Origin: Xanthomonas cassavae CFBP 4642
GTDB lineage: Bacteria > Pseudomonadota > Gammaproteobacteria > Xanthomonadales > Xanthomonadaceae
Reading direction: 5' to 3'
Length of the DNA stretch: 13,724 bases
Assembly (NCBI RefSeq): GCF_000454545.1
Contig: NZ_CM002139.1
Span: forward strand, 5,048,364 to 5,062,087
Numbering within the stretch: position 1 is the first letter of the stretch; each line of letters opens with the position of its first letter. Below, piece by piece: positions 1 to 13,724 of the stretch. The notes beneath the pieces are model-generated. The model ran no database searches. It saw nothing but the letters and a program-made list of their open reading frames with translations, and had not been told where the DNA came from. The position numbers and the translations under genes are program-made.

Positions 1-99
1 AACGCCCGGCCACGGCAGACGCTTGGCTGGAAGACGCCGAACCAGGCGCTGGAAGAAGAGATCGCTCAATTCAACTCACGTGTTGCACTTGCAAGTTGA
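1..99 (+). CDS. IS30-family-like transposase, C-terminal end (partial)
   Basis: Reading frame 1 is open from the first base to a TGA at 97-99, giving 32 residues that include RPRQTLGWKTP, then an acidic helix (ALEEEIAQF) and NSRVALAS. The R-P-R-x-T-L-G-W-x-T-P block is what I recognise as the end of the DDE domain of IS30-family transposases, where the wording 'NxRPRxxLGxxTP' lies near the C-terminus. Only the tail is present; the catalytic residues lie off the left edge, so I cannot say whether the element is intact. The stop lies inside the presumed terminal repeat of the element, which is common in compact insertion sequences. An IS3-type integrase also ends with a related motif, so the family call is likely but not certain. 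Confidence 0.72.
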   Translation, partial: NARPRQTLGWKTPNQALEEEIAQFNSRVALAS

Positions 100-106
100 G
101 ACCGCC
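1..106 (+). mobile_element. Right end of an IS30-like insertion sequence with presumed terminal inverted repeat
   Basis: The transposase tail is followed directly by a stretch at about 81-106 (beginning TGTTGCACTTGCAAGTTGAG) that overlaps the stop codon. From memory, Xanthomonas IS30-type elements end with a similar TTGCA/AAGTTGA-containing repeat. The other end is outside the window, so the matching repeat and the target duplication cannot be checked. The exact boundary (about 106) is an estimate. Only about 47 bp separate it from the stop of the SMP-30-like gene, so the element lies just beyond the 3' end of the xylan block and leaves that gene whole. Confidence 0.55.
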
Positions 107-153
107 CTGTCTCCATGCGCTGCCGCCGAGATGCACAGGCGCGCAGTGCACCA

Positions 154-1191: not shown

Positions 1192-1258
1192 CGGCAAGGT
1201 CCGGGTTCAAGTGCGAGCATCATGCCATCATGCGAGCCGCGCATGCTGGCGAACGCGG

Positions 1259-2434
1259 CTATTGCCCGGCAGCGGCGGGGACCGCCAGCACCGCGTCCAG
1301 CGCAGGTTTGGGCCGATGATTGCGGTCGAACAGCAAGGGATAATTGGTGCGGCCGGGAACCGGGTAATCGTTCTTCCACGACATGCCGTCGGTGACGCCC
1401 CACACGCTGATACGCGCCAGCGTGTCGCGCTTGCGCCAGAACAGCGCGAACAGCGCCGCATAGCGCTCGGTCAACTGCGCCTGTACCTGTGGCGGTAGCC
1501 CATCGCGATACGGGTCGAGAAACCGCTTGAATTCCGGCAGCTGGAACTGCTTGTGCGCCAGGCCCGTTCCGATCACCTGGCCTTCCTTGGTGACCGGCAA
1601 CACGTCCACGTCCAGTTCGGTGATCATCACCTTGATACCGAGCGCAGCATACGCATCGATGGCCGCTTCGATGTCCTGCACGCTGGGGTAGTTCAGCCCC
1701 CAATGCCCCTGCATGCCGACGCCGTCGATGCGGATACCGGCCTGCTGCAACATCCTGACCATGCGTACGATGCCGTCGCGTTTGGCCGGCCGCCAGGCAT
1801 TGAAGTCGTTGTAGTAGAGCTCTGCATCCGGCGCGTAGCGCTGCGCGAAGGCAAAGGCATTGCGCACCACGGTGTCACCATCGCCTACGACTCGTACCCA
1901 GTTGGTGGCCCGGTAGCTGCCGTCTTCGTCGATGATCTCGTTGACCACATCCCAGGCCCGCACCTTGCCGACATAGCGCCCGGCAACCCGTTCGATATGC
2001 GCACGCATGCGCTCGATCTGCGCAGCCGAGGTGTTGGCTGCGCCCTGCGCATCGACGAAGAACCACTCCGGGGTCTGGTTGTGCCAGACCAGCGTGTGCC
2101 CGACCACGAACATGCGCCGGCGCTGCGCATAGGCGACGAACGCGTCGGCGGCGGCGAAGTCGAACACGCCCGGCCGCGGCGCGACGACCTCGGCCTTCAT
2201 CACGTTCTCCGGAGTGACCGCATTGAAGTGGCAAGCCACCAGCGCCGCGGAGGCGGCGTCCTTGCCGGAGACGATCTCGGCATTGACTGCCGTCCCCAGC
2301 AAAAACCCCTTGGAATAGGCCGACTTGAGCGTCACCGCTCCGGGCGCGCACGCCGGCGCTGCCGTGGCGGATGCGGCGATCGCGCTCAGCCCGAGCAACA
2401 AGCCGCAGCGTAACAGCCAGGGTCGGTGATGCAT
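1259..2434 (-). CDS. xyn10A: GH10 endo-beta-1,4-xylanase, exported
   Basis: 391 residues. A signal peptide is clear: MHHRPW, a hydrophobic core (residues 8-20), then an ASATAA cleavage region near residue 26. The GH10 barrel follows in order: TPENVMK (74-80), GHTLVWHNQTPEW (112-124), acid/base E166 in WDVVNE, NDFN (209-212), MQGHWG (241-246), nucleophile E273 in ITELDVD, and VWGVTDGMSW (344-353). All canonical residues are present, so an active retaining xylanase that cuts the xylan backbone is expected, exported to the periplasm or beyond by type II secretion. Start choice: the frame is open another 86 codons upstream to 2692, but only the ATG at 2434 places a signal peptide at the N-terminus. 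It lies 400 bp downstream of uxaC on the same strand and 67 bp before the SMP-30 gene. The symbol follows X. campestris usage as I remember it; many genomes call this xynB. Confidence 0.95.
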   Translation of the reverse strand: MHHRPWLLRCGLLLGLSAIAASATAAPACAPGAVTLKSAYSKGFLLGTAVNAEIVSGKDAASAALVACHFNAVTPENVMKAEVVAPRPGVFDFAAADAFVAYAQRRRMFVVGHTLVWHNQTPEWFFVDAQGAANTSAAQIERMRAHIERVAGRYVGKVRAWDVVNEIIDEDGSYRATNWVRVVGDGDTVVRNAFAFAQRYAPDAELYYNDFNAWRPAKRDGIVRMVRMLQQAGIRIDGVGMQGHWGLNYPSVQDIEAAIDAYAALGIKVMITELDVDVLPVTKEGQVIGTGLAHKQFQLPEFKRFLDPYRDGLPPQVQAQLTERYAALFALFWRKRDTLARISVWGVTDGMSWKNDYPVPGRTNYPLLFDRNHRPKPALDAVLAVPAAAGQ

Positions 2435-2834
2435 GGCGTTCTCACAAGTCAAAAGGGGCGTGTGGTGGGGAATGCGGCGTGTGCATACCGGTGGGTGCGG
2501 GGAGTCAGGCGTTGCGTTGTGTCGAGACGAACGTGGCCCTCGCGCCCCGGCCAGCTCCAGTGCGGCAGCAGATGACGCGACCAGGCCAGCATGCCGGGCG
2601 TGCCGCTGCCGGGTGTCCGGGCGCAGGTCACAGGCGCAATTGTCGAGGTGGGACAGCAACGCCCGTAGACCCAGGGCGCGCGGTAGCGGCATACGCGCGC
2701 CGCATGTGGTCGCGCGCGCCTTGGCCGCGTGCGCGTGATGCTGTGCGGCGGCAGGGTCACCCGCTCACTCCCACGACGCACGTCGCCTGCAATGCGCCGG
2801 TCGTCGCCTGGGCGCGCGATGCGCCTGCCCACTC
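2435..2834. other. 400-bp intergenic stretch between uxaC and the xyn10A-type gene
   Basis: No convincing gene lies here on either strand; the open frames are out-of-frame GC-rich shadows with no recognisable protein. I see no TGRTAGCGCTAWCA palindrome and no clear sigma-70 promoter on the minus strand. The length is large compared with the 10-51 bp gaps in the operon upstream, which suggests that xyn10A has its own promoter or a long leader. The most distinct structure is the hairpin listed at 2675-2701. Confidence 0.7.
2675..2701. repeat. 8-bp GC inverted repeat (possible hairpin)
   Basis: GGCGCGCG (2675-2682) and CGCGCGCC (2694-2701) are perfect reverse complements with an 11-base loop. 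Neither strand has a T tract after it, so it is not a standard intrinsic terminator. It sits between the uxaC stop and the xyn10A start and could affect transcription or mRNA stability, but alternating GC runs of this size also occur by chance in such GC-rich DNA. Confidence 0.35.
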
Positions 2835-4256
2835 TCACAGCTTGTAGGCCTGCTTGGGCAGGCGGTAGGCCAGATCCACTGCGATTTCCGCAGCCTCGTC
2901 CTCGTCCAGCCGATGCTCGGCCACCAGCTTGGCCAAGAATGCACTGTCCACGCGTCGCGCGACATCGTGCCGGGCGGGAATCGACAGGAATGCACGGGTG
3001 TCGTCGTTGAAGCCCACCGTGTTGTAGAAGCCGGCACTGGCCAGGGTCTGCTCGCGGAACCGCCACATGCCCTCCGGCGCGTCATGGAACCACCAGGCCG
3101 GTCCCAGCAGCAGCGCCGGGTAATGTCCGGCCAATGGTGCCAGTTCACGGCTGTAGCTGGTTTCGTCCAGGGTGAACACGATCAGGCGCAGCCGCGGGTC
3201 GTTGCCATGGCGATCGAGCAAGGGTTTGAGCGCATGCACATAGTCGGTGCGCATCGGGATATCGGCACCCTTGTCGCGCCCGTAGCGCTGGAACAGCGGC
3301 TGGTTGTGATTGCGGAAGCAGCCCGGATGCAGCTGCATCACCAGCCCGTCGTCCAGGCTCATGCCTGCCATTTCGGTCAGCACCTGCGCGCGGAACAGCT
3401 CGGCCTGTTGCGGCGTCGCCGCGCCGCGCACCACGGTCTCGAACAGGCGCTGCGCCTCCCCCGGCGACAGGTCGGCCGTGGCGGCACTGGGATGCCCATG
3501 ATCGGTGGAGGTGGCGCCGTGCGCCGCAAAGAACGCGCGGCGCTGCCGGTGCGCGCGCAGATAGCCGGGCCAGGTCAGCACATCCTCGCCGGTGAGTGCG
3601 CCGAACTGCTGAAGCGCGCCGGCAAACTGCTCGTGCTCCGGGTCCACCACCGGGTCCGGACGGTAGGCGGTCAGCACGCGTCCGGTCCATCCGCTGTCGG
3701 CGATGGCGGCGTGATGCTGCAGGCTGTCCAGCGGCGACTCGGTGGTGGCGATCACCTCGATGGCGAAGCGCTCGAACAAGGCACGCGGTGCGAATGCGGG
3801 CGTCTGCAGCGCGGCGGTGATGTGGTCGTAGTAGTGATCGGCGGTGGCCGCATCCAGCCGGATGCGCAGATCGAACACTTCGTGGAAGACATGGTTGAGC
3901 CACAACGCCGACGGCGTTCCGCGCAACAGCGCGAAGTGTTCGGCGAACGCCCGCCATGCCGCACGCGGGTCCACCGCTGCGCGGCTGCCATGGGCTCGCG
4001 GAATGCCCAGCGTATCCAGATCGATGCCCTGGCTGTAGAGCATGCGAAACACATAGTGATCGGGCACCAGCAGCAGTTCTGTTGCGTTGGCGAACGCCGC
4101 ATTGGTGGCAAACCAGGCCGGGTCGGTGTGCCCATGCGGGCTGACGATCGGCAGCCTGGCGATCCGTGCATACAGACGGCGCGCAATCGCACGCGTGCCA
4201 GGGTCGGCGGGTAACAGCCGGTCGTCGTGCAGGGTCAGGGGAACAGGTGTGGACAT
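2835..4256 (-). CDS. uxaC: Uronate isomerase (glucuronate isomerase)
   Basis: 473 residues, the usual length for UxaC. It belongs to the amidohydrolase-like uronate isomerase family: the strand-1 metal motif H41-G-H43 in SPHGHTDP, an interior TDHGHP (251-256), QLHPGCFRNHN (309-319), and the C-terminal G385-PAWWFHD392 with its conserved Asp, followed by NTVGFNDDTRAF. It interconverts D-glucuronate and D-fructuronate (and D-galacturonate and D-tagaturonate) in the cytoplasm; no signal peptide is seen. In this context its substrate is the glucuronate freed from methylglucuronoxylan side groups. It starts 51 bp after the stop of the xyn10C-type gene on the same strand, so it is probably in one transcript with that gene and the transporter. 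No strong Shine-Dalgarno sequence precedes the ATG. Confidence 0.95.
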   Translation of the reverse strand: MSTPVPLTLHDDRLLPADPGTRAIARRLYARIARLPIVSPHGHTDPAWFATNAAFANATELLLVPDHYVFRMLYSQGIDLDTLGIPRAHGSRAAVDPRAAWRAFAEHFALLRGTPSALWLNHVFHEVFDLRIRLDAATADHYYDHITAALQTPAFAPRALFERFAIEVIATTESPLDSLQHHAAIADSGWTGRVLTAYRPDPVVDPEHEQFAGALQQFGALTGEDVLTWPGYLRAHRQRRAFFAAHGATSTDHGHPSAATADLSPGEAQRLFETVVRGAATPQQAELFRAQVLTEMAGMSLDDGLVMQLHPGCFRNHNQPLFQRYGRDKGADIPMRTDYVHALKPLLDRHGNDPRLRLIVFTLDETSYSRELAPLAGHYPALLLGPAWWFHDAPEGMWRFREQTLASAGFYNTVGFNDDTRAFLSIPARHDVARRVDSAFLAKLVAEHRLDEDEAAEIAVDLAYRLPKQAYKL

Positions 4257-4307
4257 GGGCTCAGAACACCGAGAAAGACGGGAAATACACGCTGTCGGCC
4301 GCCCGCG

Positions 4308-5300
4308 TCATGGTGCCGAGGTACCGCGGTGGGTGGCCACGTACTCGCGCAACCAGCGCATCGCCGGCCGCTCGCTGCCGTCGCCACGCAGCAAGTACGC
4401 CGCCTCCTTGTCGCGCCACAGGCCGGGACGAAACCCCCACAGGGTGATCCCGCGCACCGCAGGGTGCTCCCAGAACACCGGAAACACGCGCTGGTAATCG
4501 GCCAGCTGTTGCGCATCGCTTGGCCCATCCAGGTCGAATTCGGTGATGTAGATCGGCAGGCCAGTGGCCGTCAAGGCATCCAGATTGGCGCGGTGCACCG
4601 ACATCGCCACGTCGGGGGTGGTTTCAAAGGCATGCTCCTGGATGCCGATGGCATCCACCAGGTGCTCGCGCTGCAGCAGGTGCACGATCTGCAGATAGCG
4701 CTGGGTGGCCTTGGGCGTGTTGGTGATGCTGTAGTCGTTGATCATCAGCTTGGTGTGCGGGAAATGCTGGCGCGCCAACCGAAACGACTGCACTACCCAT
4801 TCCCACCCGCTGGTGCCGGTACCGCCCAGGGCCTGCAGATAGTTGCCGCCACCGGTGTCGGCCTTGCTGGGCGGGTCGTTGAGCGGTTCATTGACCACCT
4901 CCAGCAGGTCGATGTCCGGATAGCGTTGCGCCACGGCGGCAAACCACTGCTCGATCTCGCGGCGCTGCTCGGCCGGCGGCAGCGTCTTGATCCATTCCGG
5001 CTGCTGGTTGCCCCACACCATCACATGCATCTGGAACGGTATGCCGCGGGCCTTGGCGAAGCGATAGGCCGTATCCAGCGCGCTCCAGTCCATCTGGTCG
5101 CGCACCGCTTCCACCGTGCCCCACTTGCCGCCATTTTCCGGGGTGAGCTTGTTCCAGTACTGCGCAAATTCCGGTGCCTGCTGCGCGCTGTAGGCACTGC
5201 CCAAAAACTTGGATGCGCGCCCCGCCAACGGCGCCGCATGGGCCGCCAATGCAAGGCTTGCGGCGAGCAACACGCCCAACCCCATTGTGTGCAACTGCAT
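4308..5300 (-). CDS. xyn10C: Small GH10 xylanase, periplasmic (Xyn10C type)
   Basis: 330 residues with a Sec signal (MQLHTMGLGV, then LLAASLALAAHA, cleavage near residue 22). The GH10 core is short but complete: LTPENGGKWG (52-61), HVMVWGNQQPEW (92-103), acid/base E138 in VVNEPL, MINDYSI (186-192), IQEHAF (220-225), nucleophile E254 in YITEFDLDG and TLWGFRPG (286-293). Compared with the first GH10, the His normally found in the VWH motif is Gly97. The insert TGGGNYLQALGGTGTSGWEW (149-168) also differs. The enzyme probably works on shorter or decorated xylo-oligosaccharides in the periplasm (inference). A GAGGGA ribosome-binding site (5307-5312) overlaps the stop codon of the transporter gene, so translation is probably coupled. 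Confidence 0.93.
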   Translation of the reverse strand: MQLHTMGLGVLLAASLALAAHAAPLAGRASKFLGSAYSAQQAPEFAQYWNKLTPENGGKWGTVEAVRDQMDWSALDTAYRFAKARGIPFQMHVMVWGNQQPEWIKTLPPAEQRREIEQWFAAVAQRYPDIDLLEVVNEPLNDPPSKADTGGGNYLQALGGTGTSGWEWVVQSFRLARQHFPHTKLMINDYSITNTPKATQRYLQIVHLLQREHLVDAIGIQEHAFETTPDVAMSVHRANLDALTATGLPIYITEFDLDGPSDAQQLADYQRVFPVFWEHPAVRGITLWGFRPGLWRDKEAAYLLRGDGSERPAMRWLREYVATHRGTSAP

Positions 5301-5306
5301 GATGCG

Positions 5307-5312
5307 TCCCTC
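5307..5312 (-). promoter_or_regulatory. Ribosome-binding site of xyn10C overlapping the exuT stop
   Basis: GAGGGA on the minus strand lies 6 bases before the ATG at 5300. It overlaps the TGA (5311-5313) of the transporter gene. This fixes the start of xyn10C and suggests translational coupling of the two genes. Confidence 0.7.
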
Positions 5313-6627
5313 AGGAAGATGGCGGCGCCGGGGTGGTCGCGGGCAGATGCGCCGGCTCCAGCCGCGGCACCAGATGATGCACGAGCGCCAACGCCAGCAG
5401 ATACGCAGAGCCGGCCATCAGGAACACCGGCACATAACTGCCGGTCGCCTGTAGCAAAAACCCGATGAAGGTGGCGATGAGCATGCCGCCCACCGCGCCG
5501 GCGAATCCGCCGATGCCCACCACCGTGGCCACCGCGTGTCGCGGAAACATGTCCGACGGCAGCGTAAACAAATTGGCCGACCAGCCCTGGTGCGCGGCGG
5601 TCGCCAACCCGATCAGTGCCACCGCCAGCCACAGATTGTCTGCGCGCGCGGCAAACACGATCGGCACCACGCAGATCGCGCAGATCAGCATGGCGGTCTT
5701 GCGCGCACGATTGACGCTCCAGCCGCGCGCGATGAACCGCCCGGCGATCCAGCCACCGGCAATGCTGCCCACATCGGCCAGCACGAAGATCACGATCAAT
5801 GGCGCACCCAGTTGCAGCAGGCTCAAGCCATACTCGGCATGCAGGAACTTCGGCAGCCAGAACAGGAAGAACCACCAGATCGGGTCGGTGATGAACTTGC
5901 CCAGCACGAAGGCCCAGGCCTGGCGATGCGCAAGCACCTGCAGCCACGACAGCCGCCGTTGCGCCGGCTCGTACGCATCGCTGCGAATATGCGCCAGCTC
6001 TGCCGCCGACAGGCCGGGTTGTTGCTCGGGCGGGTGGTAACTGACCCACCACACCAACAACCAGGTGGCGCTGAGGACGCCGGTGAACAGGAAGGCTGCC
6101 TGCCAGCCCCAGATCGTGGCGATCACCGGCACCAGCAATGGGGCAACGATGGCCCCGATATTGGAGCCGGAATTGAAGATGCCGGTGGCCAGCGCGCGCT
6201 CGCGGCGCGGGAACCATTCGGCCACCGTCTTGAGCGCGGCAGGGAAATTGCCCGACTCGCCCAGCCCCAGGAAGAACCGCGCAATCGCAAAGCCTACCAC
6301 GCTGGTCGCCAGCGCGTGCCCCATCGCCGCCAGGCTCCACACCCCGATCGCCAGCGCATAGCCGATGCGGGTGCCGAAGCGGTCGATCACCGCGCCGCTG
6401 CACAACAGCCCCAATGCGTAGGCCGCCTGGAACGCGGTGACGATGTAACCGTACTGGATCTCGTTCCAACCGATCTGGGTCTGCAGGAACGGCGCCAGCA
6501 CGCCCAGCACCTGGCGGTCGACGTAGTTGATGGTGGTCGCTGCCAGCAACAGCGCGCACACCCGCCAACGCACGCGGCCCAACCCCGCCGGCGCAGCGAC
6601 AGGCACGGCCTTGGGTGCCTCGCTCAT
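5311..6627 (-). CDS. exuT: MFS hexuronate transporter (ExuT-like, anion:cation symporter family)
   Basis: 438 residues from the chosen ATG. The N-terminal half carries the signature of the ACS branch of the major facilitator superfamily: NYVDRQ (34-39) in helix 1, IDRFGTR (81-87) in the helix 2-3 loop, RFFLGLGESGNFPAALK (117-133) in helix 4, and GSNIGAIVAP in helix 5. Twelve membrane segments are expected. ExuT homologues import glucuronate and galacturonate with protons; being co-oriented with uxaC and xylanases argues for glucuronate or an aldobiouronate. Start choice: the frame opens at 6705, but the extra 26 residues are Cys/Ala-rich and outside the family, so the ATG at 6627 (MSEAPKAV) is preferred. 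It is the first gene of the minus-strand unit, 10 bp before xyn10C, and lies 165 bp from an operator-like palindrome. Confidence 0.87.
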   Translation of the reverse strand: MSEAPKAVPVAAPAGLGRVRWRVCALLLAATTINYVDRQVLGVLAPFLQTQIGWNEIQYGYIVTAFQAAYALGLLCSGAVIDRFGTRIGYALAIGVWSLAAMGHALATSVVGFAIARFFLGLGESGNFPAALKTVAEWFPRRERALATGIFNSGSNIGAIVAPLLVPVIATIWGWQAAFLFTGVLSATWLLVWWVSYHPPEQQPGLSAAELAHIRSDAYEPAQRRLSWLQVLAHRQAWAFVLGKFITDPIWWFFLFWLPKFLHAEYGLSLLQLGAPLIVIFVLADVGSIAGGWIAGRFIARGWSVNRARKTAMLICAICVVPIVFAARADNLWLAVALIGLATAAHQGWSANLFTLPSDMFPRHAVATVVGIGGFAGAVGGMLIATFIGFLLQATGSYVPVFLMAGSAYLLALALVHHLVPRLEPAHLPATTPAPPSS

Positions 6628-6792
6628 GCGCACGGCCTGCGCGGCGACCAGGCTCCGCGCAGCTGCTGCACCGGCATCGCAGCAGCAGCGGTGCGCGTAC
6701 CGCACCGGTGCCGCTCATGCGCGTGGTTGCCGCGTTCTTCGCTGGGTTTCATCGACCGCTGCACCTGCACGAGGGTGGCCTTGCGCCACGGG

Positions 6793-6806
6793 TGATAGCG
6801 CTATCA
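6793..6806. promoter_or_regulatory. LacI-family operator-like palindrome (xyl-box variant), exuT side
   Basis: TGATAGCGCTATCA is a perfect 14-bp palindrome with the central CG typical of LacI/GalR operators. It differs at two positions from the copy at 6953-6966. It lies 165 bp upstream of the exuT start, where repression would control the minus-strand operon. Binding by a XylR-like LacI repressor is inferred from the locus and from my memory of the Xanthomonas xylan regulon; the regulator gene is not in the window. Confidence 0.75.
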
Positions 6807-6952
6807 TTATCACGCTCCCCGGCGAAAGCCATCGCGCAGTGCAACACGACCGCGTGCCGTACGCACTCGCCAACCGTCAAAAACGCCCGGCTTGCGCACC
6901 ATCCTGCCCGGCTGCTGCGTCTATGCTGCCCTGCAGCGTGATGTTACGAATT

Positions 6953-6966
6953 TGGTAGCGCTAACA
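6953..6966. promoter_or_regulatory. xyl-box operator-like palindrome, receptor side
   Basis: TGGTAGCGCTAACA is a near-perfect palindrome that, as I remember it, is the consensus xyl-box bound by XylR in X. campestris. It lies 123 bp before the receptor's GTG start. An upstream TGTTACG (6942-6948) adds a further half-site-like TGTTA facing the TAACA arm. Confidence 0.8.
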
Positions 6967-7074
6967 TCCAGCGCCACTGATCGCCCGTTCTTCCCCACCG
7001 CACCATCGCCGCGCCGCTACCGGCAGCGGCACTCCCTGCGCCGGGGCGATGCGTGGGACATCTGCTCACCTGTT

Positions 7075-7084
7075 AGGGAAGGGA
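7075..7084 (+). promoter_or_regulatory. Ribosome-binding site deciding the GTG start of the receptor
   Basis: AGGGAAGGGA is a purine-rich Shine-Dalgarno stretch ending 5 bases before GTG at 7090. The open frame continues upstream to 6892, but that part would translate the operator region and has no signal peptide. This site and the following signal sequence select GTG as the start. Confidence 0.75.
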
Positions 7085-7089
7085 TTACG

Positions 7090-10020
7090 GTGAAGAACAG
7101 TTACGCACGAACCGCGTTGTCCTGCGCATTGGGATCCATCCTGCTGGGCATGGCCAGCAGCGTCGCCTGGGCCCAGTCCACCGATGCCACCACTGCGCCA
7201 CCGCCGCCGGACCCGGCCGGCAGCAACGACGCAGTGACCCAGCTCGATACCGTCACCGTCTCCGGCTACCGACGCAGCATTCAGTTCTCTACCGATGCCA
7301 AGCGCGATTCGGTCGGTTTCGCCGACACCGTGTTTGCCGAAGACATCGGCAAGTTTCCGGACATGAACATCGCCGAGTCGCTCAACCGCATTCCCGGCGT
7401 GCAGCTGGCGCGCGACGTGAACGGCGAAGGCCTCAACATCGCCATCCGCGGCCTGGGCACCAGCTTCACCAAGACCACGCTCAACGGCTCCAGCATCGCC
7501 ACCGCCTCGATCGGCCTGAACGCGCAGAACCAGAACCGCGAAGTCGATCTGAACCTGTTTCCCACCGAGTTCTTCACCCAGCTCACCGTCAGCAAGACAC
7601 CGACCGCCAGCATGCTCGAGGGCGGCGTCTCCGGTGTGGTGGACATGCGCAGCGCGCGCCCGTTCGATCGCCCCGGCGTGCACTTCACCTACCAGGCGCA
7701 GGCCGACTGGAACAGCACCAGCGAGAAGACAACCCCACGCGGCGCCTTCATGGGCAGCTGGACCAATGAGGAAGGCACCCTCGGCGCGTTGTTCGGGATG
7801 GCCTCGGTGCGCAGCAAACTCGGCGTGCGCGGCTTCGAGAGCGTGGGTTGGACCAACCCGGGCCTGACCTATACCCAATGCGGGCTCACCCCGCCCGCAG
7901 GCACGCCGGCCACCAATCAGCCGGCGGCGTGCAACGTCAACGGCGGCGGCAACTGGCGCATTCCCGACCGTGTCCCTGCCACTGCCGGCAGCGGCCTGAC
8001 CACCGGCGAAACCATCGACGCGGCGTGGCTGCTGGCACGCAACCCGGGCCTGAGCATCGACCAGATCAGCGATGCCTTGATTCCGCGTCTTGGCCGCCAG
8101 GTCTACATGAATGGCGATCGCGACCGCGATGCGTCGGTGATGTCGCTCGAATGGCGCCCCTCCGACAGCATGCACTTCTACCTGGACACGCTGTATTCCG
8201 AAGCCAAGCGCACCACCGAGCGGATCAGCATGAATCTGATCGGCCGCAACGGCAACATGATCCCGCTGGGCATGCAGCTGGACCAGAACAACGTGGTCAC
8301 CAGCGCCACCTTCGCCAACGCGCAGTACTTTCTGGAAGCGCGCCCATACCGCGAAGAGGTCAAGTTCTGGAGCGTCAATCCCGGTGCAGAGTTGTTGTTC
8401 GGCCCCGAGCAGGACATCAAGCTCAACGTGCAGGCCAATGCCACGCGCAGCTGGCTGGACCGCGAGTCGCCCAGCATCCTGGTCACCTCGCCGTTCACCA
8501 CCGTGGACTATCGCAACGAAGGCGGCGACCGCCCCTCGATCACCAGCCCGCTGGACCTCAACGATCCCAACCTGGGTTGGGGCTGGACAGGTGGCCGGGT
8601 CAACATCCAGAACGAAAAACGCGTGACCGAAACCCGCGGCGCACGCGCCGACCTGCAGTTCGGCGAGGACAAGCGCAACATCAAGATCGGTGCGGCCTAC
8701 GATCAGGCCGAGCGCACCATCCGCGGCTTCGACAACAGCATCGCCTGGGAGCAGGTGGTCTGCCGTGGCGGTGGCGGTAACGTATGCAATGGCGGTCCGG
8801 GCTCGGCGGTACCTAGCGCGGTGCTAGCCACCTATTTGCGGCCCGGCCCGGATGGCTTCATCACCGCCGATTTCGATCGCTTCCTGCGTGACACCAACTA
8901 TTACCCATTGCGCGATGCAGCGCCGGAATCCAACTCGGCCAATACCGGCGCCTCGACCGGTGGCATCCGCGAGAAGAACCTCGGCTTCTACATCGAAACC
9001 AACGCGGAAACCGAGGTGTGGAACCGCACGCTGCGCCTCAACGCCGGCGTACGTTACGTCACCACCGACCAGACCATCACCGGCCCGGTCACCATCAACG
9101 GCATCCGCCGCGTGCAGGTACTCGACTCCGACTACAAGGAAGCCCTGCCCTCGTTCAATGCCGCCTGGGACGTGGCCGACAACGTGGTGCTGCGCCTGTC
9201 CAGCTCGCGCACGCTCACCCGCCCGGACCCGAGCGCGATGTTGCCCAACACCAACTTCAGCGATCCCTCCGCGCAGACCGCCACCCAAGGCAATCCGAAT
9301 CTGGCGCCTTACCTGTCCACCAACGTCGACTTCGGCGGCGAGTGGTATACCGGCGGGGAAGGCTATGTGGGCCTGACGCTGTTCAACAAGCGCATCAGCG
9401 GCTTTACCGTCAACGGCGTGCGGCGCATTCCCTTCAACGATCTGGGTGTGCCCTACGACAGCCTGCTGCCGATCCAGCAGGCCGGCCTGCAGCAACGCGG
9501 TGGGCCGGACGCGGCCCCAGTCGACGTGCAGACCCAGGTCAACGCCGATGGCGTGCTCGACATCCGCGGTACCGAGGCGATCTGGGTGCAGCCGCTGGAC
9601 AGGCTGGTCGACGGCCTGGGCTTCAGCGTCAACTACACCCATGTCGCCCAATCCTCCGAAGGCGAAGGCGTGCCGGCGGTGGCGGTGGGTGTGGCGCCGA
9701 ACCTGTGGAACGGCACCGTGTACTGGGAAAAGAAGGCCGCCTCGGTACGCCTGTCCTACACCTGGAACGACGACATGGTGATCTCCGGGGCCAACCAGAA
9801 CGGCATTCCGTACGCACGCCTGAATGCCGATGCGCGCGGCCAGCTGGATCTGTCGGCCAGCTATGCGCTGGACTGGCTGCCGTCCAAGCCGCAGATCACC
9901 CTCAACGTCACCAACATCACCGACGAGCCGCTGCGCACCACCTATGCGTGGCCCAACGCCACCTACGACCTGTACGAGCCGGGGCGCACCGTCATGCTCG
10001 GCATCCGCGGCACGTTCTGA
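7090..10020 (+). CDS. TonB-dependent receptor, xylo-oligosaccharide uptake
   Basis: 976 residues from a GTG start. Residues 1-29 form a signal peptide ending AWAQ; a Thr/Pro-rich linker follows, then a TonB-box-like DTVTVSGYRRS (53-63). The plug domain has FPDMNIAESLNRIPGV (89-104) and NIAIRGLGTSFTKTTLNG (116-133). The remainder is a 22-strand barrel that ends in the outer-membrane terminal Phe (LGIRGTF). This is the large Xanthomonas/Caulobacter carbohydrate receptor type (TIGR01782-like). It is expected to take up xylo-oligosaccharides across the outer membrane using TonB energy. The ligand is inferred from its place beside xylanases, a sugar symporter and GH43. It resembles XytA of X. campestris by context, but I leave the symbol blank. 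Expression is probably controlled by the palindrome at 6953-6966. Confidence 0.94.
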   Translation: MKNSYARTALSCALGSILLGMASSVAWAQSTDATTAPPPPDPAGSNDAVTQLDTVTVSGYRRSIQFSTDAKRDSVGFADTVFAEDIGKFPDMNIAESLNRIPGVQLARDVNGEGLNIAIRGLGTSFTKTTLNGSSIATASIGLNAQNQNREVDLNLFPTEFFTQLTVSKTPTASMLEGGVSGVVDMRSARPFDRPGVHFTYQAQADWNSTSEKTTPRGAFMGSWTNEEGTLGALFGMASVRSKLGVRGFESVGWTNPGLTYTQCGLTPPAGTPATNQPAACNVNGGGNWRIPDRVPATAGSGLTTGETIDAAWLLARNPGLSIDQISDALIPRLGRQVYMNGDRDRDASVMSLEWRPSDSMHFYLDTLYSEAKRTTERISMNLIGRNGNMIPLGMQLDQNNVVTSATFANAQYFLEARPYREEVKFWSVNPGAELLFGPEQDIKLNVQANATRSWLDRESPSILVTSPFTTVDYRNEGGDRPSITSPLDLNDPNLGWGWTGGRVNIQNEKRVTETRGARADLQFGEDKRNIKIGAAYDQAERTIRGFDNSIAWEQVVCRGGGGNVCNGGPGSAVPSAVLATYLRPGPDGFITADFDRFLRDTNYYPLRDAAPESNSANTGASTGGIREKNLGFYIETNAETEVWNRTLRLNAGVRYVTTDQTITGPVTINGIRRVQVLDSDYKEALPSFNAAWDVADNVVLRLSSSRTLTRPDPSAMLPNTNFSDPSAQTATQGNPNLAPYLSTNVDFGGEWYTGGEGYVGLTLFNKRISGFTVNGVRRIPFNDLGVPYDSLLPIQQAGLQQRGGPDAAPVDVQTQVNADGVLDIRGTEAIWVQPLDRLVDGLGFSVNYTHVAQSSEGEGVPAVAVGVAPNLWNGTVYWEKKAASVRLSYTWNDDMVISGANQNGIPYARLNADARGQLDLSASYALDWLPSKPQITLNVTNITDEPLRTTYAWPNATYDLYEPGRTVMLGIRGTF

Positions 10021-10071
10021 CAGTGACTATCGACACGACGGCGCCGTGGGCAGCCATGCGCGGCCGATGGT

Positions 10072-10102
10072 CGCGATGCACGCACTCTACGCGTGCATCG
10101 CG
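10072..10102 (+). repeat. Perfect 12-bp hairpin between receptor and transporter genes
   Basis: CGCGATGCACGC (10072-10083) and GCGTGCATCGCG (10091-10102) are exact reverse complements with a 7-base loop (ACTCTAC). No T run follows on either strand, so it is not a classical intrinsic terminator. It starts about 50 bases after the receptor stop in a 241-bp spacer without other recognisable features. It could stabilise the receptor mRNA 3' end, partially attenuate downstream transcription, or be a dispersed repeat. Confidence 0.7.
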
Positions 10103-10261
10103 CCGCCGCTGCGCCGGTCACGCTGCCTGCAAGACGGCACACGACGTTTTAACGGACACTGCAACCGCTGCGCCTGCGGCCACGATCCAGCGAGGTCACG
10201 GCCAGCGGCGTAGCGCGCGCCGCGGCGTTTTCCGTAGCACTCTTCGAGCCCGCCTCACCTC

Positions 10262-11749
10262 ATGAACGATCGGTCACAGCAGCTCTCCGTGCGCGAGAAG
10301 ATCGGCTACAGCCTGGGGGACCTGGCCGCCAACCTGATCTTCCAGACGTTGGTCACTTTCCTGGCGTTCTTCTATACCGACGTGTTCCGGATTCCCGCCA
10401 GCGCGGCGGCCACGTTGATCTTTGTGGTCGGCCTGCTCGGCGCGTTTGTGTTCACGCCCATCATCGGCATCCTGGCCGACCGCACGCGCACCCGCTGGGG
10501 CAAATTCCGCCCATGGATCCTGTGGACGGCACTGCCGTTCGGCGCACTGTCGCTGGCGGCGTTCAACACGCCGACGCTTGGCGAGCACGGCAAAATCACC
10601 TATGCCTTCGCCACCTACACCTTGCTGATGCTGGTGTATGTGGCCAACAACCTACCGTACTCGGCATTGAGCGGCGTGCTCACCAGCAGCATGGAGCAGC
10701 GTAACAGCCTGTCTGCGTATCGCTTCCTGGCGGTGACGTTCGCGCAGTTCATCATCCAGGTGCTGTTGCTGCCATTGGTGTTGATCCTGGGCAATGGCGA
10801 CAAGGCGCAAGGCTTTCGCAACACCATGGGGCTGTTCGCGGCAGTCGGCACGCTGTGCTTCCTGATCACCTTCTTCACCACCCGCGAACGCGTGCTGCCG
10901 ATCACCGAACAGCGCAGCAGCGTGCGCCAGGACCTCACCGACCTGGTGCGCAACAAGCCGTGGCTGGTGATGCTGGCACTGACGATTCTGGTCTTCATCA
11001 ATCTCGCCATGAAGGGCGGGATGTACATCTACTACTTCAAGGACTACCTCGACGCGGGCGCGCTGGCGCAGTTTCTCGACAACGCAGGCTTCAATCGCTT
11101 CACTGGCGGCATCAACAGCATGCTCACCGGTGCCGGCATGACCGCGTTGCAGTGGCCGCAGGACGCGCCCACGTCGGCCTTCAGCGTGTTCAGTGCCGGC
11201 GGCATCCTGGCGATGATCGTGGGCATCGGGTTTTCCAAGCGCCTGGCCGATCGCTACGGCAAGCGCAACGTCTTCGGCGGCGCGCTGCTGGTTTCCACGC
11301 TGTTCCTGCTCGCGTTCTACGTGTATCCGCCGGATGCGATTGGCTTGGTATTTGCCTCCTACGTGCTGCACGGCTTTTTCTACGGCATCACCATCCCGCT
11401 GCTGTGGGCGATGATCGCCGATGTGGCCGATTACTCGGAGTGGAAGAACCACCGCCGTGCCACTGCCATCATCTTCTCGGCGATGTTGTGTGGCCTGAAG
11501 ATCGGCCTGAGCGTCGGTGGCGCGCTGGTTGCCGGCCTGCTCGCCGTCTATGGCTATGACGCCGCGCAGCCACGGCAGGGCACCGCGGTAACAGATGGCA
11601 TCCGCCTGGCCATCAGCGTGTACGCCGCCCTGCCGTTCCTGCTCGGCACCGCGCTGTTGGCGCTGTACGAAATCGACAAGGCACTGGAAACCCGCATCGA
11701 ACGCGAGCTGGGCGTGCGCCGTCAGGCCACACCCCTCGCATCGCCCTAA
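10262..11749 (+). CDS. GPH-family sugar:cation symporter (MelB/XynP-like)
   Basis: 495 residues, about 12 membrane segments. Family marks: REKIGYSLGDLAANLIF at the start of helix 1 (11-27), LADRTRTRWGKFRPWILW (71-88) after helix 2, NNLPYSAL (129-136) in helix 4, IADVADYSEWK (385-395) and GLKIGLSVGG (411-420), with K413 corresponding to the key Lys of MelB helix 11. It is expected to carry xylo-oligosaccharides or xylosides across the inner membrane. Oddity: aligned by eye with MelB, the two cation-site aspartates of helix 2 (WDAINDP) are Ala61 and Thr65 (GAFVFTP), and the helix-4 Asp is Asn130. A segment at about 260-305 between helices 7 and 8 is longer than in MelB. It lies 241 bp after the receptor gene and 34 bp before GH43. 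No clear Shine-Dalgarno sequence precedes the ATG. Confidence 0.92.
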   Translation: MNDRSQQLSVREKIGYSLGDLAANLIFQTLVTFLAFFYTDVFRIPASAAATLIFVVGLLGAFVFTPIIGILADRTRTRWGKFRPWILWTALPFGALSLAAFNTPTLGEHGKITYAFATYTLLMLVYVANNLPYSALSGVLTSSMEQRNSLSAYRFLAVTFAQFIIQVLLLPLVLILGNGDKAQGFRNTMGLFAAVGTLCFLITFFTTRERVLPITEQRSSVRQDLTDLVRNKPWLVMLALTILVFINLAMKGGMYIYYFKDYLDAGALAQFLDNAGFNRFTGGINSMLTGAGMTALQWPQDAPTSAFSVFSAGGILAMIVGIGFSKRLADRYGKRNVFGGALLVSTLFLLAFYVYPPDAIGLVFASYVLHGFFYGITIPLLWAMIADVADYSEWKNHRRATAIIFSAMLCGLKIGLSVGGALVAGLLAVYGYDAAQPRQGTAVTDGIRLAISVYAALPFLLGTALLALYEIDKALETRIERELGVRRQATPLASP

Positions 11750-11783
11750 CCCCCCACCTCCCACCCCATGCACAGGTACGCGC

Positions 11784-12818
11784 ATGTCCGATGAACTGCA
11801 AGCCGCCACCCTGCAGGCGCTGGCGCGCACCGCCATTTCCGCACCGCTGGTCACCCACCTCTACACCGCCGACCCGTCCGCGCATGTGTTCGACGGCGCG
11901 TTGTATATCTATCCCTCGCACGACATCGATGCCGGCGTGGCCTTCAGCGACGACGGCTCGCACTTCGGCATGGAGGACTACCACGTGTTTCGCATGGCGC
12001 ATCCCAACGCGCCGGCCGAAGACCTGGGCGAAGTACTGCATGTGCGCGATGTGCCCTGGGCGCAGCGGCAGATGTGGGCGCCAGATGCCGCGCAACGCAA
12101 CGGCAAGACCTATCTGTACTTTCCGGCCAAGCGCGCCGACGGCATCTTCCAGATTGGCGTCGCGGTCAGCGACGGACCGCAAGGTCCGTTCACCGCAGAA
12201 CCGGAACCCATCGCCGGCAGCTACTCCATCGACCCGGCGGTGTTCGCCGATGCCGATGGCGAGCATTACCTGTACTTCGGCGGCATCTGGGGCGGCCAGC
12301 TGCAGCACTACCGCGACAATGGCTATGCGCAGACCCACCAGGAACCCGAAGGCGCGGCGCCGGCGCTCGGCCCGCGCGTCGGCCGCCTGCGCCAGGACAT
12401 GCTGCACCTGGCCGAGCCCACGCGCGAGGTAGTGATCCTCGACGAACACGGCACCCCGCTACGCGCCGACGACCACGCCCGCCGCTTCTTCGAAGGCCCC
12501 TGGGTCCACCACCACGCCGGCCGCTATTACCTGTCGTATTCCACCGGCGACACCCACCTGATCTGCTACGCCACCGGCGACGCGCCCTACGGCCCGTTCA
12601 CCTATCAGGGCGTACTGCTCGCACCGGTGATCGGCTGGACCACCCATCACTCCATCTGCAACGTCGATGGGCAGTGGTACCTGTTCTACCACGATGCCAG
12701 CCTGTCGCAGGGCCAGACGCATCTGCGCAGCATCAAGATGACGCCGCTGCAGCACGATGAGCAAGGAAAGATCGCGACGATTTATCCGTATGGGGAAGAT
12801 GCGGCATCACCTTGGTGA
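11784..12818 (+). CDS. GH43 glycosidase (beta-xylosidase/arabinofuranosidase), cytoplasmic
   Basis: 344 residues, no signal peptide. It is a five-bladed propeller of glycoside hydrolase family 43 with all three inverting-mechanism acids visible: base D30 in YTADPSAHVF, pKa-modulating D150 in YSIDPAVF, and general acid E237 in FFEGPWVHHH. The motif YPSHDIDAG (43-51) followed by MEDYHVF (63-69) resembles the GH43_1-type subfamily. It should remove xylose or arabinose from imported xylo-oligosaccharides; linkage specificity cannot be read from sequence. Start choice: the frame is open from 11595, but that part overlaps the transporter gene, and MSDELQ at 11784 starts a normal domain. The gap to the transporter stop is 34 bp, so they are probably one transcript. 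Confidence 0.94.
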   Translation: MSDELQAATLQALARTAISAPLVTHLYTADPSAHVFDGALYIYPSHDIDAGVAFSDDGSHFGMEDYHVFRMAHPNAPAEDLGEVLHVRDVPWAQRQMWAPDAAQRNGKTYLYFPAKRADGIFQIGVAVSDGPQGPFTAEPEPIAGSYSIDPAVFADADGEHYLYFGGIWGGQLQHYRDNGYAQTHQEPEGAAPALGPRVGRLRQDMLHLAEPTREVVILDEHGTPLRADDHARRFFEGPWVHHHAGRYYLSYSTGDTHLICYATGDAPYGPFTYQGVLLAPVIGWTTHHSICNVDGQWYLFYHDASLSQGQTHLRSIKMTPLQHDEQGKIATIYPYGEDAASPW

Positions 12819-12820
12819 TG
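12805..12820. repeat. Short inverted repeat over the GH43 stop codon
   Basis: CATCACC (12805-12811) and GGTGATG (12814-12820) are exact reverse complements around two bases. The RNA form would be 6 bp with a 4-base loop. It covers the TGA of GH43. No T tract follows, so its role as a terminator is doubtful. Confidence 0.4.
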
Positions 12821-13029
12821 AACGACGGCGCGGAACCCACACACCGCGCGACAGGAGCATGCTGCATTCGACAAGCGTATCACCTGAGCCACGCACCCTG
12901 CTCTGCATGAATGCACGCAACGCGGCACCTACCGTGCAAGCGCTTGCGTAACGATCGCGTTGCCTTGACTCTGCTGTGCCTGCGCAGCACACTCGGCGCT
13001 GGAGCGTAGCAACTCCGTAGACAGCGGTG
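12819..13029. other. Intergenic stretch after GH43
   Basis: I see no supported gene in these 211 bases. The only tidy short frame, ATG 12859 to TAA 12951 (30 residues), has its AGGAG too close to the ATG and no recognisable sequence. The stretch holds the palindrome at 12936-12947 and a TTGACT (12965-12970) that could be a -35 element with a poor -10 (CACACT, 12988-12993). Confidence 0.6.
12936..12947. promoter_or_regulatory. Perfect GCAAGCGCTTGC palindrome, LacI-type operator candidate
   Basis: The 12-bp palindrome has the AAGCGCTT core typical of many LacI/GalR-family sites. It is clearly different from the TAGCGCTA core of the two sites near 6800 and 6960. It lies 18 bases before a possible -35 element (TTGACT), so it could control the transcription unit to its right. 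Whether any protein binds it is unknown. Confidence 0.4.
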
Positions 13030-13055
13030 CCACCCCCGTCAAGCGGTGGTTTTTT
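13030..13055 (+). terminator. Intrinsic terminator
   Basis: CCACC (13030-13034) pairs with GGTGG (13045-13049), with an alternative CCG/CGG extension near the loop, and is followed at once by six T residues (13050-13055). This is the best Rho-independent terminator in the window. It could end the receptor-transporter-GH43 transcript or a short RNA starting near 12995. Confidence 0.65.
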
Positions 13056-13190
13056 GTGCCCGATTCTTGGGCACACGCTCGGCGTCTCCGCGCCGGGAGG
13101 GCGGCGAATACAACACCCGCAAGGGAAATAAGCCCGCCGTCTGTCTGCGGTTGCTAACCTCCCGGCATCCCGCCGCATCGTGCGGCGGGA
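13055..13190 (+). ncRNA. Highly structured RNA / leader element upstream of the XAC0095-like gene
   Basis: About 135 nt with nested and competing helices. Hairpin 1 is TGTGCCC/GGGCACA (13055-13061/13069-13075, 7-base loop). A hairpin CGGCG/CGCCG (13080-13084/13091-13095) overlaps the 5' arm of a long-range 9-bp stem, GCCGGGAGG/CCTCCCGGC (13092-13100/13158-13166), so they exclude each other. Inside it are GGCGG/CCGCC (13100-13104/13134-13138; its first base is shared with the outer stem) and a CCC-GCAA-GGG tetraloop hairpin (13116-13125). A 10-bp hairpin, TCCCGCCGCA/TGCGGCGGGA with loop TCG, closes the element at 13168-13190, 8 bases before the ribosome-binding site. The sequence also has A-rich single-stranded patches (GAATACAACA, GGAAATAA). 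I do not recognise the class with certainty; the phage C4 antisense RNA family is one possibility, a cis-regulatory leader another. Confidence 0.5.
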
Positions 13191-13198
13191 GCCTGTCC

Positions 13199-13204
13199 GG
13201 AGAG
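13199..13204 (+). promoter_or_regulatory. Ribosome-binding site of the XAC0095-like gene
   Basis: GGAGAG lies 6 bases before the ATG at 13211, and 8 bases after the 10-bp hairpin. It supports this start over the in-frame ATG at 13046, which would translate the structured element. Confidence 0.65.
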
Positions 13205-13210
13205 TCGAGC

Positions 13211-13468
13211 ATGGACCAGTCTCTGTTCGGGTATTACCTGCTGCCGGAAGACGCGCAGCTTCGGTTGCTGCAGACGCGCGATCATCTACGCTTTCTCGCT
13301 GCGCTGGCACGCCCCCGCTGCGTGTCCAGTACCTCAGGCAGCAATGAGCCTCCCATACCATTGGATGCGTTGGCATTCTGCTTCGATATGCTGGCTGAGC
13401 AATTGAACGATGTATTGCTGCAGGCCTCGGTGCCTGGCGACATGACAGAGCGACGTCCTTCGTCATAG
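13211..13468 (+). CDS. XAC0095-like small protein
   Basis: 85 residues beginning MDQSLFGYYLLPEDAQLRLL. The G-Y-x-L-P-x-x-A-x-x-x-L block followed by an amphipathic helix (QTRDHLRFLAALARP) is what I recognise as the XAC0095-like family, small proteins largely confined to xanthomonads and without an assigned function. A middle Ser/Thr/Pro-rich stretch (32-46) is followed by a second helix, LDALAFCFDMLAEQLNDVLLQ. No signal peptide or membrane segment is seen, so it is probably cytoplasmic. The start is fixed by GGAGAG at 13199-13204. The long structured element directly upstream suggests post-transcriptional control. No functional link to the xylan genes is visible. Confidence 0.7.
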   Translation: MDQSLFGYYLLPEDAQLRLLQTRDHLRFLAALARPRCVSSTSGSNEPPIPLDALAFCFDMLAEQLNDVLLQASVPGDMTERRPSS

Positions 13469-13475
13469 CCTGGGT

Positions 13476-13577
13476 ATGACGCGAGCAACTGCGGTAATCG
13501 CTGCCACCCTTATCTCGATTTACTTTTTGCTGCTTCTACAAGCTGTAAGCAATATTCCATCATTATGGAAGCTCTGA
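13476..13577 (+). CDS. Possible 33-residue single-span membrane peptide
   Basis: An ATG 7 bases after the XAC0095-like stop opens 33 codons ending in TGA. The product starts MTRAT, has an unbroken hydrophobic segment of about 19 residues (AVIAATLISIYFLLLLQAV, 6-24), then a polar tail ending in SLWKL. This layout (short basic N-terminus, one membrane helix, Trp/Lys near the end) fits small membrane peptides, including type I toxin-like and regulatory ones. The DNA is visibly more AT-rich than the surrounding genes. The only Shine-Dalgarno-like bases (CTGGG) are too close to the ATG, so translation may depend on coupling with the gene before it. It may equally be a chance frame. Confidence 0.35.
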   Translation: MTRATAVIAATLISIYFLLLLQAVSNIPSLWKL

Positions 13578-13621
13578 ACAACCCATCCTGATCTGCCACA
13601 ATTGATCAACAGTTCACCTGA

Positions 13622-13708
13622 TTAGCCCTGACCATCAGCCGCCTGTCGCAGGATCTGCGCCGCGCTGGGTGGATGCTGCTGTCACCTGAAGCCAACGAGG
13701 TGGCGTGA
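13622..13708 (+). pseudogene. Short orphan reading frame, possible remnant of a gene's 3' end
   Basis: After a TGA at 13619-13621, a frame runs to TGA at 13706-13708 and would encode LALTISRLSQDLRRAG followed by WMLLSPEANEVA. It reads like protein sequence, uses GC-rich third positions, and its stop overlaps the next ATG as TGATG, an arrangement typical of coupled operon genes. No good start codon is present (one internal ATG at 13673 would give only 11 residues). It may be what is left of a truncated gene, or a chance frame. The 40 bases before it hold a TTGATCAA palindrome and nothing else I can name. Confidence 0.25.
13697..13703 (+). promoter_or_regulatory. Ribosome-binding site of the gene at the right edge
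   Basis: GAGGTGG lies 4 bases before the ATG at 13708 and supports a true start there. Confidence 0.45.
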
Positions 13709-13724
13709 TGAGTATCAATGCCGT
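13708..13724 (+). CDS. Start of an unidentified gene (partial)
   Basis: ATG at 13708 opens a frame coding MSINA before the window ends. It has a GAGGTGG ribosome-binding site and overlaps the stop of the preceding short frame as TGATG. Five residues are too few to identify a product. Confidence 0.4.

Follow-up and report, generated by a model that had tools for sequence, protein, structure and literature searches.

The stretch of DNA analysed here, called the window, comprises 13,724 nucleotides of the genome of Xanthomonas cassavae CFBP 4642, and all features of the window described below lie on its forward strand. Judged by eye from the translations, positions 1-12818 hold a cluster for the use of a sugar polymer, with glycosidases, a uronate isomerase-like protein, a TonB receptor and transporters, which precedes a structured leader that begins near 12965. 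Behind the leader lies a gene of the XAC0095 family at 13211..13468 that encodes 85 amino acids (NF047335, 83.2 bits, cut-off 34), and directly after this gene, from about 13708 to past the window end, there is a transposase-like ORF, of IS1595 type by eye (locus L009). A sequence-only reading of this DNA had described the RNA ahead of the XAC0095-like gene as unassigned and as starting at 13055. The gene stands, and the RNA already has a name: it belongs to sRNA-Xcc1 (Rfam RF02221), a small RNA known from plant pathogens, which cmscan of the window places at 13092-13174 (76.5 bits, cut-off 53, E 7e-13) and which forms the middle part of a larger feature. The same scan, proposed in that reading with the phage C4 model in mind, returned no match to C4 (RF01695) at E <= 1, and a hit to sbcD was taken as chance, its 19.6 bits lying below the cut-off of 40 (E 0.23). 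RF02221 is given no clan in Rfam. The family was found as an 88-nt RNA, mapped by RACE, in Xcc 8004 (PMC2996969, which like the other papers given by such numbers is cited here from part of its text), and seven Xylella homologues are reportedly transcribed (PMC12189769).

RF02221 occurs in all 35 Xanthomonas genomes searched, with 1 to 13 copies in each and seven in X. cassavae CFBP 4642. The main set of relatives consists of 186 unique loci out of 188 found in the genus, the family, the class, phages and plasmids; L080, L081, L087, L187 and L188, which lack the core, and L068, whose flank is too short, were dropped, and L078, L089, L185 and L186 were kept though their core is probably false. 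The ORF behind each RNA was chosen mechanically and is in the wrong frame at some loci (e.g. L021, L022, L030). Exact core matches were also seen, among the matches listed (L395-L474), in contigs labelled Desulfovibrionaceae, Azospirillum, Pasteurellaceae, Neisseriaceae, Pseudomonas and others, and by its sequence the RNA core is far more widespread than Xanthomonas.

Architecture and conservation of the leader

The leader opens with a promoter-like site at 12965..12993, TTGACT and CACACT spaced by 17 nt, which was recognized by eye and conforms to a family-wide pattern. It is followed by a 5' hairpin GGAG/CTCC (13001..13016, by eye and from complementarity) with a segment b1 in its loop region, by a second segment, a1, and by an intrinsic terminator at 13030..13055, with a stem of CCACC (13030-13034) and GGTGG (13045-13049) placed by eye and six T at 13050-13055; a terminator scan gave a slightly different stem, 13036-13049, with the same T run. 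On the 3' side of the terminator lie a hairpin GTGCCC/GGGCAC (13056..13074) and, in the MFE fold, a pre-P1 segment (13077..13090) that overlaps the hairpin CGGCG/CGCCG at 13080-13084/13091-13095, the latter competing for the 5' strand of P1. The three stems of the RF02221 model, including the tetraloop tip of P2, are all present in the Xcc1 element. P1 has nine pairs (13092-13100 with 13158-13166); P2 (13103..13134) pairs 13103-13105 with 13132-13134, holds a conserved internal loop AATACAA..AATA and ends in a tip, 13116-13118/13123-13125, closed by a GCAA tetraloop (hairpin 13116-13125); P3 is a hairpin at 13136..13151 whose loop carries a segment a', and the linker between P3 and P1 carries b'. 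A 10-bp hairpin (13168-13177/13181-13190) stands eight bases ahead of the ribosome-binding site GGAGAG (13199..13204).

This layout is common, by eye, to all seven copies of the genome, which share the order of a TTGAC promoter-like site, a hairpin GGAGC...AACTCC, a short variable stretch ahead of AGCGG, a terminator with its T run, a segment able to pair with the 5' strand of P1, Xcc1, a ribosome-binding site and a small ORF. Among the 186 unique loci, 158 have a T run of at least five upstream of the RNA, in 139 of them together with a stem of at least five pairs. The pattern TTGAC-17..19-A...T occurs at -185 to -100 in 92 of the 186 loci, whereas five shifted windows give it in 0-1 of 180-186. 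Relative to the terminator, 92/186 loci have such a promoter-like site 5' of it and 0/186 have one between it and the RNA; with a relaxed pattern the numbers are 142 and 3. A generic sigma-70 scan reported no promoter at the 12965-12993 site of the window. Since promoter-like sites precede the terminator and, with the strict pattern, are not found between it and the RNA, the terminator at 13030-13055, in view of which the sequence-only reading had thought that the RNA might be its own transcript, seems to be internal to the same leader rather than to close another unit, and it appears unlikely that Xcc1 has its transcription start at a promoter right next to it.

The dense structure ascribed to the region is borne out. 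The fold of 13055-13212 has a predicted energy of -91.1 kcal/mol, compared with -65.5 +/- 3.9 for 200 shuffles (z -6.6), and the helices that had been named, the six pairs of GTGCCC/GGGCAC, the 9-bp stem, the GNRA hairpin and the 10-bp hairpin, are all found in the sequence. P1, P2 and P3 are kept across 136 relatives with changes on both sides; the nine pairs of P1 are retained in 117/136 to 135/136 of them, and the pair 13093-13165, for instance, is TA in 102, CG in 17 and GC in 2. The sequence-only reading had made its case depend on compensatory changes in the 9-bp and 10-bp stems, and because of these two-sided changes the 9-bp stem holds. For the 10-bp stem the expectation is borne out in the genus, where the hairpin covaries (CCCGCCGC/GCGGCGGG, CCCGCTGC/GCAGCGGG, CCGTCGC/GCGACGG) and reaches at least 7 bp in 14/36 loci versus 1.1% of shuffles, and in the rest of the family (27/108 versus 2.4%), but not outside the family, where 7 bp are found in 2/31 loci versus 3.2% of shuffles, so that the hairpin is not general. 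Mutually exclusive helices are likewise present, as CGGCG/CGCCG uses bases that P1 needs for its 5' strand and the competing hairpin occurs in two matched forms, CCGACGC/GCGTCGG and CGGCG/CGCCG. Of 37 genus loci, 29 have it with 5 bp or more, and its private covariation is modest because 43% of swapped pairs reach the same length. A TATGG motif before P1, considered as a feature shared with C4, was rejected (8/40 outside loci versus 0-5 of 39-40 in five shifted windows), as was the looser ATGG (12/40 versus 0-3 in seven shifted windows), a weak signal picked after looking.

Complementarity between the RNA and its own leader

The P3 loop, a', and the linker next to it, b', are complementary to a1 and b1, the two stretches ahead of the terminator. 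In the window, AGACAG (13019-13024) faces CTGTCT (13141-13146), as found by eye and with the support of the tests on the class given below, and TAGCAAC (13007-13013) faces GTTGCTA (13150-13156); the predicted duplex of leader and a'b' has an energy of -30.5 kcal/mol. These segments vary from copy to copy, as an address would, and the two sides vary together. A helix score of at least 17 is reached for a1-a' in 87 of 112 loci with distinct addresses versus 8.2% of swaps between loci, and for b1-b' in 76 of 112 versus 9.4%, compared with 6/112 versus 10.1% in a reverse-complement control with the same score. By duplex energy of leader and a'b', the own pair ranks in the top 5% of swaps at 88/104 loci (by group, 11/13 in the genus, 57/62 in the rest of the family and 19/29 among outside, phage and plasmid loci). 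When a1 and a' were located by an anchoring blind to pairing, which could be applied to 123/186 loci and mis-anchored the window itself, 47 of the 60 distinct a1-a' pairs used were fully complementary, and the four variable address positions were Watson-Crick in 82-92%, against 28-49% expected if independent.

Two further sets were fetched with the P2 core pattern only, at least 80 viral and at least 80 genome loci. Among the matches listed, 7 had too short a flank and 154 were used, with 119 distinct addresses; an address already present in the first set recurs at 4/67 viral and 15/52 genome loci, and 1 and 5 loci are identical. The own pair is in the top 5% at 37/67 viral and 34/52 genome loci and outside it at 30/67 and 18/52, among the matches listed. 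With the addresses already in the first set removed, 32/63 viral (p 8e-13) and 20/37 genome loci (p 6e-9) rank in the top 5%, again among the matches listed. As a positive control, 16 distinct known C4 loci from the same family were put through this kind of test: in 10 of them the own pair is best of all, and one locus, L208, is probably mis-located by the pattern.

The code is equally evident within a single genome. In a 7 x 7 matrix of the copies of X. cassavae CFBP 4642 the own pair is best in every row, and two of these copies, L001 and L003, are identical at 247 of 259 positions and differ at 12, eight of which are four changes in a1 with four matching changes in a'. By these comparisons each Xcc1 copy is shown to carry a private code, complementary to its own leader. 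Such two-sided changes of address would insulate the copies from one another within one cell, an indication that orthogonal RNA regulators occur naturally as sets.

Genes behind the leader and possible modes of control

The proposal that the RNA precedes other XAC0095 paralogues is confirmed. For XAC0095 and for SymE, 30 loci each were taken out of many more places, one from each of 30 Xanthomonas genomes and always the one with the best score; with L009 and L010 added on the XAC0095 side, the Xcc1 core lies upstream of 25/32 XAC0095 and 25/30 SymE loci, and the leader is absent at the other 7/32 and 5/30. Three XAC0095-family genes are encoded in the X. cassavae genome, two of which, the window gene and that of L002/L008, stand behind an Xcc1 copy, and around the third (L010, C6:322882-323067) no Xcc1 match was found within the 3186 bases scanned. 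Among the downstream ORFs of 183 loci, single-linkage clustering puts 98 into a cluster that includes XAC0095-family proteins, a part of its members having been scanned, and 36 into a cluster with SymE-like proteins, of which one scanned member matches SymE PF08845 at 74.3 bits. XAC0095 of X. citri is reported to be a partner of HrpG (PMC2883993), and XAC0095 is reportedly expressed only in planta (PMC2653504). At L020 and L027 the ORF behind the leader starts with ATGCACGACG, as in the XAC0095 primer of PMC2653504, and therefore XAC0095 itself probably carries this leader. This sits uneasily with the BLAST search in PMC2996969, which, in the accessible part of that paper, gave no sRNA-Xcc1 homologue in X. 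citri 306; an insensitive BLAST is our guess.

At L001, L003 and L007 an XAC0095-like or very short ORF is followed, by eye, by a close SymE-like ORF, a pair that resembles orf45-anrP and for which translational coupling is, by analogy, possible. Outside the family many copies precede small ORFs, and a PHROGs scan of the ORFs at L064, L067, L069, L071, L074 and L076 gave no match in the six.

In the viral relatives the next gene is mostly an antirepressor. The annotated next gene is an antirepressor in a Bordetella phage and an Escherichia phage, KilA-N in an Acinetobacter phage and Rha in a Pantoea plasmid; in a Klebsiella plasmid it is annotated as hypothetical and identified by Pfam as KilA-N. 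The anti-repressor label in phage Smp131 carries little information because the annotated frame overlaps the leader itself. Among the matches listed, 14 of 81 viral loci have no closed ORF of 60 amino acids, and the 65 distinct ORFs scanned match Bro-N (11), P22_AR_N (9), Rha (9), AntA (9), KilA-N (7) and ORF6N (7), 52 matches in sum to six antirepressor N-terminal families whose members may overlap; 35 of the 65 match PHROG 245, anti-repressor Ant. For 71 other ORFs of the same viral contigs the corresponding counts are at least 2 for P22_AR_N and at least 1 for Rha, lower bounds taken from the 25 of 51 families listed. The window gene belongs to the XAC0095 family instead of being an antirepressor.

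The layout, the self-matching pairing code and the phage relatives suggest that the gene behind the RNA is under a switch borrowed from phages. We consider it likely that sRNA-Xcc1 is the centre of a leader that exerts antisense control of the C4 type. We infer that transcription would start 5' of the terminator, where some transcripts would end and release a short b1-a1 RNA, while the remainder would read through Xcc1 into the XAC0095-family gene. Xcc1 would be excised from the longer transcript as an RNA of about 88 nt, with a' exposed in its P3 loop and b' in its linker. The partners of these two segments would be a1 and b1 in the leader of that copy and, in some phage relatives, the ribosome-binding site as well. 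The excised RNA would repress the downstream gene; a1-b1, either as the short RNA or within the nascent leader, may titrate Xcc1 or act as a second target. The system may have originated in phages, mostly before antirepressor genes, and have come to stand before XAC0095-like and SymE genes in xanthomonads. On balance we favour the broader view that Xcc1 represents a second, widespread class of C4-type antisense RNA for phage antirepressors, domesticated in xanthomonads as insulated, self-addressed switches for XAC0095-like and SymE genes.

How the RNA might reach the ribosome-binding site bears on a serious rival to C4-type control, namely attenuation, in which mature Xcc1 would bind a1-b1 in the nascent leader and cause termination instead of blocking the ribosome-binding site, in the manner of P4 CI and seqA, which are described as a structural parallel of IsrK (PMC4825925). 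The position of a1 directly 5' of the terminator is as attenuation would have it, and the complementarity of a'b' to the leader is far stronger and more general than that to the ribosome-binding site. Pairing of a'b' with the ribosome-binding site is nevertheless significant in phage copies, being private in 23/65 viral loci (p 9e-14; 24/61 with new addresses only) and absent as a private signal in 42/65, all among the matches listed; in the genome set it is found in 11/51 (p 3e-5, among the matches listed). Attenuation is a tentative alternative, less probable than repression of the C4 type. In the genus neither a'b' (2/13, p 0.08, not significant) nor the pre-P1 segment (2/13, p 0.27) shows private conservation of pairing with the ribosome-binding site. 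In the predicted fold of the window, pre-P1 (13077-13090) covers the ribosome-binding region (13198-13210), with a pairing energy of -26.0 kcal/mol, which makes it no more than a candidate for a pairing site at the ribosome-binding site of the window gene. Folding fails to discriminate between states, since for the window all six states tried give this site a predicted accessibility of 0.01-0.02; over 95 loci the mean is 0.29 for the leader after the terminator, 0.34 from P1 and 0.42 with the RNA removed.

The private self-complementarity, the linkage to antirepressor, XAC0095 and SymE genes and the presence in phages all speak against the view that Xcc1 is a virulence sRNA acting in trans on many chromosomal targets, with the gene behind it incidental. 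We regard that view as unlikely, even though a paper of 2011, by its title, reportedly places sRNA-Xcc1 under HrpG/HrpX control. The HrpX box has the pattern TTCG-N16-TTCG; a scan of the window found none near the leader and a sole match, at chance level, at 10815-10838. The 88-nt RNA mapped by RACE and its many predicted targets (PMC2996969) would also suit action in trans. If its targets are written in its own leader, as C4-type control would have it, the vague outcome of target searches for a "virulence sRNA" would be explained.

A ligand-sensing riboswitch or other metabolite-sensing leader, suggested by the conserved A-rich internal loop of P2 and the competing helices and raised in the sequence-only reading, is very improbable and was rejected on gene context: the downstream genes that can be named are antirepressors, SymE and XAC0095, with no metabolic pathway among them, and the variable part of the RNA is a base-pairing address. 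That the hairpins are remains of mobile DNA (integron attC or transposon) with no RNA function is scarcely credible, in spite of reports of the element in integron cassettes (PMC12444791) and the transposase-like ORF named by eye downstream, given the covariation of P1-P3 and of the address, the conserved promoter and terminator, and the RNAs reported in Xcc (PMC2996969) and Xylella (PMC12189769).

In the literature searched, mostly freely readable papers, sRNA-Xcc1 was not found linked to antirepressors; the parts seen of the papers on sRNA-Xcc1 make no mention of a promoter-b1-a1-terminator unit, a private code or an antirepressor context, and do not so far link it to C4. Among the papers listed, PMC12189769 alone carries the Rfam numbers of both RF02221 and C4, which in the part seen stand as separate table entries. 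C4-type control would give a mechanism and a predicted target to an sRNA family that has been named in plant-pathogen and integron studies and that, in the accessible parts of the literature searched, is called a likely virulence regulator with no confirmed target. The reach of such control would grow to take in a widely distributed RNA family whose address code can be read, and the findings suggest that the switch passed from the antirepressors of phages to toxin-like and T3SS-linked genes of bacteria; if so, chromosomal copies might also act against incoming phages that share their address.

Comparison with known antisense systems

SymR is the cis-encoded antisense RNA of symE. SymE genes also stand behind the regulatory RNA in many xanthomonad copies of Xcc1; SymR is described as cis-encoded (PMC12444791), whereas Xcc1 is part of a same-strand leader. 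IsrK/STnc1160 of Salmonella Gifsy-1 has in common with the Xcc1 leader a terminated short RNA, a read-through mRNA and a complementary processed RNA (PMC4825925). The isrK promoter gives rise to the terminated short RNA and to a translationally inactive read-through mRNA that is activated by the short RNA, and a further stable RNA, complementary to IsrK, is encoded downstream in Gifsy-1 (PMC4825925). IsrK stands before a small ORF and an antirepressor-like gene, Xcc1 here before an XAC0095-like gene, and the isrK model RF01394 gives no match at E <= 1 on RF02221 leaders. The CI RNA of phage P4 with seqA and seqC, a processed antisense RNA that pairs at one site 5' and one site 3' of itself, can be likened to Xcc1 by description (PMC4825925).

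In its anatomy the leader is like that of C4 (RF01695, with c4-a1b1, RF03163, in clan CL00128). In phages P1 and P7, RNase P releases the C4 RNA from a longer transcript; the RNA has stems P1-P3, its b' segment partly covers the ribosome-binding site, and a' gives specificity (PMC5320573). The RNase P cut is made at the base of P1. That the RNA might belong to C4 had been raised from the sequence, and the idea fares differently by layout and by model. The C4, c4-a1b1 and isrK models give no match at E <= 1 at positions 12800-13724 of the window or in the relatives scanned (L002, L004 and 20 diverse RF02221 loci), and the RF02221 model gives none on C4 loci, so that no covariance model matches in either direction; Xcc1 further differs from C4 in its short P1 and in the large conserved internal loop AATACAA/AATA of P2. 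The layout and private complementarity, on the other hand, fit the C4 mechanism. The order of b1, a1, a terminator-like hairpin, a three-stem RNA and an ORF is the same, the P3 loop holds a' and the linker holds b', as seen from model alignments and helix positions, the address is private, and the antirepressor context is common to both, known for C4 from the literature and found for Xcc1 in the viral relatives only. Five C4 loci over the RF01695 cut-off (L191-L195; C6: 4492607, 406416, 4777263, 3190785, 831595) are present in the X. cassavae genome, all with c4-a1b1 upstream in the same order (two over the cut-off and three below, E <= 1.2e-5); counting isrK-like matches as well, most of the upstream matches are below cut-off. 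A Blast comparison of L191 with phages gave no match. With these loci in the same genome, two C4-type systems, C4 and Xcc1, therefore seem to coexist side by side, and because the Xcc1 leader has the parts of C4 in the order of C4, control of the C4 type is proposed for it.
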